From Anaerostipes caccae L1-92 (GTDB lineage Bacteria > Bacillota > Clostridia > Lachnospirales > Lachnospiraceae), in the NCBI RefSeq assembly GCF_014467075.1, contig NZ_AP023027.1, forward strand, positions 953,001 to 1,017,000: a stretch of DNA of 64,000 bases. The letters run 5' to 3'. The notes beneath the pieces were generated by a model, which worked only from the letters and a program-made list of their open reading frames with translations, searched no databases and was not told the origin of the DNA. Position 1 is the first letter of the stretch. Each line of letters starts with the position of its first letter. This document shows positions 148 to 62,252 of this stretch, one piece after another. Position numbers and translations under genes: made by a program.

Positions 148-325
148 TTCGATTTCCCAACCGGTAAATTTAGCGGGTACGAAGAAACCGCATAAAACTG
201 CGGGTTAGAGATTGTTTTTAAAGAAAATTAAAAAAACTGCTGTCGGTTGGGAAAAAATAAGGGAAACGTTGATTTTATCAGGGGAAATGACTATAATGAA
301 AATAAAGAATGGCGGAAATACGTTG
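148..325 (+). promoter_or_regulatory. Leader with promoter of CRISPR-like unit 1
   Basis: AT-rich leader that reads into the repeats at 326. It holds a sigma-A-type promoter: TTGATT 269-274, a 17-nt spacer, and TATAAT 292-297, so transcription should start about 20 nt before the first repeat. Upstream lie an inverted pair, TTTCCCAACC near 153 and GGTTGGGAAA near 245, and a small CCGC/GCGG hairpin. The same elements in the same order occur at 9718-9897 before the second unit, which suggests one functional leader duplicated. The leader assignment is inferred from this pairwise conservation. Confidence 0.7.
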
Positions 326-484
326 GATAAACAATAACAAGAGTTGTATTGAAATGTAGACCGACAGAAAGAAATGCCTCTGGAGATTGATAAACAATAA
401 CAAGAGTTGTATTGAAATACGTCCATGAAGTAATTAAAAATTGGTTTGATTCGGGATAAACAATAACAGGAGTTGTATCAATAT
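326..484 (+). CRISPR. CRISPR-like mini-array 1: three 30-bp repeats, two spacers, no cas genes
   Basis: Repeats lie at 326-355, 389-418 and 455-484. The first two are identical and end with ACAAGAGTTGTATTGAAAT; the third is degenerate at its 3' end (ACAGGAGTTGTATCAATAT), as is usual for a terminal repeat. Spacers are 356-388 (33 nt) and 419-454 (36 nt) and are unrelated to each other. The repeat contains a short palindrome (ACAA-gag-TTGT, extendable to CAAT...ATTG). The ATTGAAAT end resembles class 1 repeats, but the subtype cannot be fixed without cas genes, and none lies in the window. A related unit lies at 9898-10059. Confidence 0.72.
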
Positions 485-6820: not shown

Positions 6821-6879
6821 GAAAAAATCATGGGCAGCATGGTATACTTACGTCACAGATGAAAGATAATATGATACCA

Positions 6880-7049
6880 GGGTCAAAAGGGTATGCGTTT
6901 CATGCTTGTATGAAAAAGCAGGGCTTTGGGACCCATAAAACATGAGAAAGCAGCCCGATTAGGGCGGATTTCGAATGTTTTTAGGATTGTGGGAGCACAA
7001 AGTGCGGAACAATCCGCAGGTATCTGGGGGTCAAAATACCTTTTGACCC
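6880..7049. repeat. Palindromic intergenic element with GGGTCAAAA ends
   Basis: GGGTCAAAA occurs at 6880-6888 and again at 7028-7036, the second one paired through TACC to TTTTGACCC (7041-7049) as a perfect 9-bp hairpin. GGTAT/ATACC pairs accompany both. The bases between show no convincing gene. Together with the Crp/Fnr palindrome this is all that can be seen in the 6770-7092 gap; it may be a small palindromic repeat element or a regulatory region for rubredoxin. Confidence 0.45.
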
Positions 7050-9717: not shown

Positions 9718-9897
9718 ATTGGTTTTCCCAACCTCAAAAAGAGACGAAATGCCGGGAGACCGCTTAAAATGGCGGTTGGAAGCCGATTTGAAAGAAAATG
9801 CCGGAAAAACAGAAACGGTTGGGAAAAATTCAGAGAAACGTTGAATTTATCAGGGAAAATGACTATAATGGATATAAGGAATGGCGGAAATACGTTG
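9718..9897 (+). promoter_or_regulatory. Leader with promoter of CRISPR-like unit 2
   Basis: Counterpart of 148-325. It has TTTTCCCAACC near 9723 and GGTTGGGAAA near 9818, an ACCGC/GCGGT hairpin, and the promoter TTGAAT (9841-9846), 17-nt spacer, TATAAT (9864-9869). The last ~60 nt before the repeat (ATGGCGGAAATACGTTG and flanks) are almost identical in both leaders, the strongest conservation being next to the first repeat, as in CRISPR leaders. Confidence 0.7.
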
Positions 9898-10059
9898 GAT
9901 AAATAAAAACAAGAGTTGTATTGAAATATGGAAGACTTACAAAATAAAAGATTTGATAACATGATAAATAAAAACAAGAGTTGTATTGAAATTCCGCCTT
10001 AATGTTGCTATAGATAACCTCTGTATTTCGATTAATAAAAACAAGAGTTGTACTAGACC
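9898..10059 (+). CRISPR. CRISPR-like mini-array 2: three 30-bp repeats, two spacers, no cas genes
   Basis: Repeats at 9898-9927, 9963-9992 and 10030-10059. The first two are identical; they share ACAAGAGTTGTATTGAAAT with unit 1 and differ from it only in the AT-rich 5' part. The third is degenerate at its 3' end (TTGTACTAGACC). Spacers are 9928-9962 (35 nt) and 9993-10029 (37 nt), unlike each other and unlike the spacers of unit 1. The gene-free stretch 9686-10166 is filled by the leader, this array and a terminator. Confidence 0.72.
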
Positions 10060-10088: not shown

Positions 10089-10129
10089 AGGCATTGAGCT
10101 TCTTTAATTTCACAAGAAACTCAATGCCT
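10089..10129. terminator. Terminator hairpin downstream of the VOC gene
   Basis: AGGCATTGAG (10089-10098) pairs with CTCAATGCCT (10120-10129), with the stem extended by CTTCTT/AAGAAA. On the minus strand it is followed by TTTTC, so it probably ends the VOC gene; on the plus strand it also closes the CRISPR-like unit. Confidence 0.6.
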
Positions 10130-25845: not shown

Positions 25846-25891
25846 AAACATAGTATAAAATTGCATATCGAAGTAGAGAATAATGATTCTC

Positions 25892-26040
25892 CAACTTCAG
25901 GGCAGAGTGAGACGTTTTAAAGCGTCAATTCTCGACTGGCGGTGATCCTTTTTTATAGAGCAGAAGGCAAGTCCGCGAACCGAAAGGCCGATTGAGTGTG
26001 AATCTCAAACCAACAGTATAGTCTGGATGAAAGAAGTAAC
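25892..26040 (+). ncRNA. FMN riboswitch (RFN element)
   Basis: The RFN consensus is clear: CTTCAGGGCAGAGTGAGA, then CTGGCGGTGATCC, AGTCCGCGAACC, and the closing AGTCTGGATGAAAGAAGT whose GAAGT pairs with ACTTC at the 5' end (P1). It binds FMN and represses the downstream gene. A terminator hairpin directly after it is the expression platform. The gene-free interval 25679-26167 is accounted for by promoter, aptamer and terminator. Confidence 0.96.
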
Positions 26041-26071
26041 CATGGACGGTATTTTTGTATCGTTCAGCACA

Positions 26072-61978: not shown

Positions 61979-62050
61979 AATACCCGGATGATCCGGGAAC
62001 TGTCCATAGAGACGTGCAATTTTCAGGCAATCGTGATACAATCATTGAGT

Positions 62051-62114
62051 ATGACATTTTCCACATGATTTCCGTCCGGCTCTTAGAATGCCTCACTCCA
62101 ATCATGTGGAAAAT
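62051..62114. repeat. Long inverted repeat (15-bp arms)
   Basis: ATTTTCCACATGATT (62056-62070) and AATCATGTGGAAAAT (62100-62114) are perfectly complementary across a 29-nt loop. The left part ATGACATTTTCCACA recurs as a direct repeat at 62233-62247. Confidence 0.8.
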
Positions 62115-62171
62115 GGACGTGATATCTACTGGATAAGTATCCATCAAACAAATGGAATTGTCCAACGATAG

Positions 62172-62229
62172 TTTTTTAGCACTATTGGAGGAATGCATTT
62201 CAAAGCGTGACGGAAATAGTGCTAAAAAA
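62172..62229. repeat. Long inverted repeat (14-bp arms)
   Basis: TTTTTTAGCACTAT (62172-62185) and ATAGTGCTAAAAAA (62216-62229) are perfectly complementary across 30 nt. With the previous repeat and the family 2 copy it accounts for the gap 61979-62335. Confidence 0.8.
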
Positions 62230-62252
62230 TTCATGACATTTTCCACAGAGCA

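Follow-up and report, generated by a model that had tools for sequence, protein, structure and literature searches.

Two small CRISPR arrays of Anaerostipes caccae as very probable members of a dispersed, leader-driven type I-B family at inherited sites

Introduction

The stretch of DNA analyzed here (the window, 64,000 nucleotides, G000:C1:953001-1017000, from a genome of one contig and 3,590,719 bases, 3.59 Mb) carries two very small repeat units, which raises the question of whether they are adaptive CRISPR arrays, leftovers of such arrays or a family of fixed RNA genes. A sequence-only reading had described two tiny paralogous units and had considered their arrangement unusual, suggesting either duplication of leader plus repeat or a family of stand-alone crRNA units scattered on the chromosome. 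The question bears on what leads some bacteria to keep a single long array and others to keep many small arrays. In this study, the same sites were followed in three species, together with recent copies of units, an apparent deletion scar and a phage within an array.

Results

Anatomy of the Two Window Arrays

Positions 9898-10059 of the window are a CRISPR array of three repeats and two spacers, and a paralogue of the array at 326-484. Both arrays consist of 30-nt near-identical direct repeats and unique spacers of 33-37 nt, with a leader at the first repeat and a degenerate terminal repeat. The features of the two units are as follows.

153..254, plus strand: inverted pair of unit 1 (arms 153-162 and 245-254)
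269..297, plus strand: promoter-like pair in the leader of unit 1 (TTGATT 269-274, 17 nt, TATAAT 292-297)
308..325, plus strand: 3' end of the leader of unit 1
326..484, plus strand: array of unit 1 (repeats 326-355, 389-418 and 455-484, the last terminal and degenerate)
356-388 (33 nt) and 419-454 (36 nt), plus strand: spacers of unit 1
9724..9733, plus strand: left arm of the inverted pair of unit 2, TTTCCCAACC, at the left edge of the unit
9817..9826, plus strand: right arm of the inverted pair of unit 2, GGTTGGGAAA
9841..9869, plus strand: promoter-like pair in the leader of unit 2 (TTGAAT 9841-9846, 17 nt, TATAAT 9864-9869)
9880..9897, plus strand: 3' end of the leader of unit 2, AATGGCGGAAATACGTTG, abutting repeat 1
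9898..9927, plus strand: repeat 1 of unit 2, GATAAATAAAAACAAGAGTTGTATTGAAAT
9928..9962, plus strand: spacer 1 of unit 2, 35 nt, no target found
9963..9992, plus strand: repeat 2 of unit 2
9993..10029, plus strand: spacer 2 of unit 2, 37 nt, no target found
10030..10059, plus strand: terminal repeat of unit 2, degenerate

The earlier description of two units about 9.6 kb apart, each with three 30-nt repeats and two spacers, was accurate, the distance between the arrays being 9572 bases. Within each array repeat 1 equals repeat 2, and between the arrays these repeats differ at positions 7 and 10 only, so that their 3' 20 nt are identical, in agreement with the near-identical 3' half of the repeat noted before. 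The third repeat of unit 2 has 7 mismatches to the reference repeat used and has lost its 3' end. The leaders of the two units can be aligned over 117 nt at 90% identity, a stretch that includes part of the array. The Rfam model CRISPR-DR3 recognized two repeats of the 326-484 array on the minus strand (41.9 bits versus the curated 41 bits, E 0.073) and made no call for the 9898 array. Elsewhere in the window Rfam placed a Clostridiales-1 RNA at 6872-7025 and an FMN riboswitch at 25889-26042, and a terminator-like hairpin, GGCATTGAG...CTCAATGCC, was read from the sequence at 10090-10128, directly after the 9898 array.

A Common Leader Module

In all 23 leaders examined (9 from A. caccae, G000, and 7 from each of two relatives, G005 and G006), the best promoter-like pair within 100 nt before repeat 1 resembled TTGANN-N17-TATAAT. 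The pair begins 57-58 nt before repeat 1 and has a perfect TATAAT in 21 of the 23; in the window arrays it takes the form of a sigma-70-type promoter, TTGAWT-N17-TATAAT. Upstream of the promoter, the arms TTTCCCAACC and GGTTGGGAAA show few changes between leaders and the stretch between them is divergent. In the window, the pattern TTTCCCAACC-N60..90-GGTTGGGAAA was found at two places, one for each array; 100 shuffles yielded no instance. This inverted pair is a putative protein-binding or adaptation element, and the leader 3' end AATGGCGGAAATACGTTG is likely to represent a candidate adaptation motif.

A search of genome contigs with the exact leader pattern, from which records of the own genome were possibly excluded, returned A. 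hominis BG01 only, in three stretches. Leader matches were present in at least 4 of 397 genomes of the family, own included, a lower bound because two candidates were scored per genome. A literature search on leader motifs yielded no paper.

Ten Arrays and a Probable Type I-B cas Operon

A leader-plus-repeat search, combined with scanning the retrieved stretches for repeats, revealed ten arrays genome-wide, with the leader in place in nine and displaced in one. They lie as follows (number of repeats).

953 kb (3), 963 kb (3), 1067 kb (2), 1078 kb (9), 1609 kb (3)
2180 kb (2), 2632 kb (13), 2642 kb (7), 2705 kb (4), 2962 kb (4)

By this count, which excludes a further decayed repeat-like piece downstream of the 1078, 2180 and 2642 arrays, the ten arrays hold 40 spacers. 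The 2962 kb array has no leader beside it; its leader stands at 3057 kb. The proposed family of scattered leader-plus-repeat units is thus real, and it is doubtful that they stand alone, as two of them flank a probable type I-B cas operon.

This operon, 1.7 Mb from the window arrays, comprises cas2, 1, 4, 3, 5, 7, 8 and 6 at 2.633-2.641 Mb, between the 2632 and 2642 arrays, and its genes have open frames. NCBIfam models placed Cas1, 2, 3, 4, 5 and 6 above the cut-offs and named Cas1 and Cas5 as type I-B; the putative cas7 fell below the cut-offs and the putative cas8 had no family match, and these two names are based on size and operon position. Repeats 1 and 2 of the 2642 array, which adjoins the operon, match the repeat of the 9898 array letter for letter, and the 2632 array has a different repeat core. 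Cas1 occurs twice in the genome, and a second cas locus, at about 0.37 Mb, could conceivably serve the window arrays. Other repeat-like stretches, visible as repeated peptide patterns in ORFs, flank that second locus on both sides (G000:360000-379000).

Inherited Sites With Changing Spacers

Eleven genomes of the genus, counting the own one, were searched, and three of them (G000, G005 and G006) contained leader-plus-repeat units; G005 resembles A. caccae in having both units and a matching cas operon. Judged by flanking DNA, both window sites are orthologous in the three genomes, and the number of repeats varies: 3 in A. caccae, 12 in G005 and 3 in G006 at the 953 site, and 3, 16 and 8, respectively, at the 963 site. 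No 18-mer was common to any of the 130 spacers in the 24 units of the three species. Spacers have therefore turned over between lineages, here between species. The sequence-only reading had held that base-for-base conservation of spacers would argue for a fixed RNA gene; the spacers proved unlike across species at both orthologous sites, which indicates adaptive arrays at inherited sites instead of fixed RNA genes. The species comparison, made on sequence, thus supports sites that persist while their spacer content turns over. In G005, a 7.5-kb segment with inverted ends GGTCCTATGTCAAGATTTAGTACAAGTTAA (G005:C6 43906-51447) breaks into the end of the array orthologous to that at 9898, and the ORFs of this composite-transposon-like insertion resemble, by eye, transposase and sugar-uptake genes.

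Spacer Targets

The 130 spacers of the three species were compared with a ~95-kb prophage-bearing insertion of the A. caccae chromosome, allowing at most 8 mismatches. Seven matched, with 0, 1, 2, 4, 5, 7 and 8 mismatches, and none of the 130 reversed spacers used as a control came within the limit (best, 9 mismatches). TC stood at -3/-2 of the target in six of the seven matches from which this motif was itself derived, the 5' flanks being TCA (three), TCC (two), TCG (one) and CTA (one). Two of the matching spacers (0 and 7 mismatches) come from the positional counterpart of window array 1 in G005, and one (4 mismatches) comes from the positional counterpart of window array 2 in G006. Of the 40 own spacers, a single one matches the resident prophage within this limit. 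It is the spacer nearest the leader in the 2632 array, and its 2 mismatches and CTA flank would be compatible with a self-target that has escaped.

A mobile-element origin is thus seen for 7 of the 130 spacers of the family, and the four window spacers were without a match. One exact 22-24-mer from each of these four found nothing in IMG/VR, where a piece of a G005 spacer, used as a comparison query, matched one contig. Against 50,697 phage records, array 1 gave 19 weak matches (best E 0.5 among the 15 listed) and array 2 gave 25 (best E 0.01 among the 15 listed), with no convincing target among these.

A Prophage Within Repeat 1

The leader of the 2962 array is separated from its spacers by ~95 kb with prophage genes (G000:C1:2962002-3057148), inserted in repeat 1 at a site that is uninterrupted in G005 and G006. 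Both borders of the insertion lie inside the repeat and have a short common core, ATAAACAA, and an integrase gene occupies the leader-side edge (L130:14083-15387), with a CI-like repressor and an anti-repressor nearby; an endolysin and a Rha-like regulator are found toward the other end. In G005, where the array at this site is intact, the spacer closest to the leader matches, with one mismatch, the prophage that split the site in A. caccae.

The same integrase, 100% identical over 434 residues, is present in IMGVR_UViG_2835226800_000003, with the leader of the 2642 unit next to it. Repeat 1 of that unit is broken at the same point, within about 4 nt, the leader-side border being the one seen. 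The host flank of this contig is 98.5% identical to the A. caccae chromosome over 2915 nt, and we therefore regard the contig as coming from another strain of this species. Three other relatives of the integrase (90-95%) were located at the ends of contigs. A search of IMG/VR with the leader-side att junction returned one contig, the one already known, and the array-side junction gave 0 matches. Within the genus, integrase matches occurred in 8 of 11 genomes, with at most 52% identity outside the own genome.

Taken jointly, these observations allow the tentative reading, somewhat short of an even chance, that an Anaerostipes temperate phage lineage attaches at the junction of leader and first repeat and so severs the leader, with redundant arrays as a counter-measure. 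If this were true, many dispersed units would also be many attB sites for the phage, and lysogeny would cut the leader of one unit from its spacers, a small loss where there are many self-promoted small arrays.

Birth, Loss and Decay of Units

The leaders of the 1078 and 2180 units of A. caccae are 99% identical and those of the 1038 and 923 units of G006 are 96% identical, and one member of each pair occupies the 1078 site. The suggested duplication of leader plus repeat is well supported for these two pairs; the window pair predates the species, since G005 and G006 also have units at both of its sites. The 2180 unit lies within 1.1-1.3 kb that is absent from G006 and G005, and other DNA (8-9 kb) occupies the place of the 2705 unit in the two relatives. 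The 2642 unit is absent from G005, where about 29 nt resembling the end of a leader are left (by eye), which we read as a deletion scar. Copies of a dispersed palindromic element (~190-320 nt), which is numerous in G000, G005 and G006, were also observed near several units; one copy was found in the window, at 62048-62241.

The genome of G006 (one contig, 100% complete) contains seven units, all with the promoter-like pair, and one of them (G006:261778) is an empty unit with a leader, a single repeat and no spacer. A search of this genome gave no Cas1 match, four Cas3-model matches that all fell below the cut-off, and no match to the cas8b of A. caccae; the latter had a 37% match in G002, a genome without units. 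Because G006 keeps seven units without detected cas1, cas3 or A. caccae cas8b, the presence of units does not prove function. Over 21 of the 24 units (the three arrays with fewer than 3 repeats being excluded), deviating non-terminal repeats were more frequent in G006 than in the two cas-bearing genomes (6 of 27 versus 7 of 100, Fisher p 0.03). The first repeat was unlike the second in 3 of 6 arrays of G006 versus 1 of 15 (p 0.053), and this single case is the array that the prophage interrupts.

Discussion

Considering all the above results, we propose that the window features are very likely CRISPR arrays of a dispersed, leader-driven type I-B system whose sites are inherited. In this model, the module of upstream inverted pair, sigma-70-type promoter, leader end and mostly short array, of which there are ten copies, would be transcribed from the leader of each copy. 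Cas6 would process the transcript, with the 2.63-Mb operon as its most likely source, and the resulting crRNAs would direct Cascade/Cas3 against phage DNA bearing a 5'-TCN PAM, as the seven matches suggest. New spacers would enter beside each leader, and sites could thus be inherited while their content turns over. The window arrays would be low-content members of the ten-array set, in which copies of the unit may occasionally be made and lost and the first repeat may serve as an integration point for a temperate phage, leaving an array cut off from its leader.

The idea that these units are a fixed family of small-RNA genes merely resembling CRISPR draws on their tiny size, the equal count in both and their own promoters, but it is highly improbable given that orthologous sites hold other spacers in other numbers, with no 18-mer in common, and that spacers of the family match phage DNA. 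A closer rival, unlikely in our estimate, regards the window arrays as relics that were formerly adaptive, have since fallen silent and persist by chance as remnants of a larger set. That each has two spacers, where the corresponding G005 sites have 11 and 15, would agree with this, as would G006, in which units outlive cas genes and repeats drift. However, the first two repeats are identical within each window array, neither the promoter-like pair nor the leader end is damaged, and cas genes with open frames are present, all of which favor the adaptive arrays proposed here.

As for how units spread, they might travel as cargo of the short palindromic dispersed repeats, in the manner of MITEs, rather than by rare recombination. 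The insertion carrying the 2180 unit is flanked by inverted copies, 73% alike, of the dispersed element, and the flanks of the 1078 and 2180 units are alike on both sides. As these two units alone suggest an array carried by a MITE, we retain it as a rival only and consider it improbable. Palindromic elements are common in all three genomes among the matches listed, and the lone copy found in the window is far from the array pair. Moreover, the 923 and 1038 units of G006 are alike for only ~10 nt upstream of the TTTCCCAACC arm, and the 2705 unit stands instead at the place of other DNA in both relatives. With the sites traceable in three related species, and with recent copies, a scar and a phage in view, the birth, filling, loss and phage capture of units become directly testable in gut commensals.

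A search of the literature on Anaerostipes and CRISPR, by titles and abstract openings, gave nothing pointing to these arrays. Precedents exist in other organisms. According to the available part of the report on Clostridioides difficile 630, this strain expresses 12 type I-B cassettes with similar repeats, two of them cas-associated, with start sites and leaders for all 12 and five in prophage regions (PMC3649979). Prophage integration into CRISPR repeats is credited to S. pyogenes in the text seen of two citing articles (Varble et al., 2021, cited in PMC9379143 and PMC10359306), and viruses of the Sulfolobales carry mini-CRISPR arrays with one or two spacers, a leader and no adjoining cas genes, as stated in the accessible portion of that paper (PMC6858448). 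In view of the C. difficile and S. pyogenes precedents, the window arrays are ordinary in kind; the paralogy seen in the sequence-only reading stands, and the arrangement it called unusual has a parallel in strain 630, as far as the available text of that report goes (PMC3649979).

The interest lies in the cross-species comparison and in the phage at repeat 1. Like C. difficile 630 as described in that text, A. caccae has dispersed, very probably type I-B arrays with their own leaders, few of them beside cas genes; there five cassettes lie within prophage regions, whereas here a prophage lies within an array (PMC3649979). The present analysis goes beyond that comparison in tracing orthologous sites across species and in G006, with units but no detected cas1, cas3 or A. 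caccae cas8b. The few spacers, the leader and the lack of cas genes beside the window units recall the Sulfolobales mini-arrays, which, in the portion of that paper at hand, are carried on viruses, whereas the window units are chromosomal and occupy sites common to related species (PMC6858448). As in S. pyogenes, on the citing articles' account, a temperate phage has inserted in CRISPR repeats (Varble et al., 2021); in contrast, the host here has a probable type I-B system with many dispersed arrays, and one integrase is found beside two different units in two strains, with repeat 1 broken in both.
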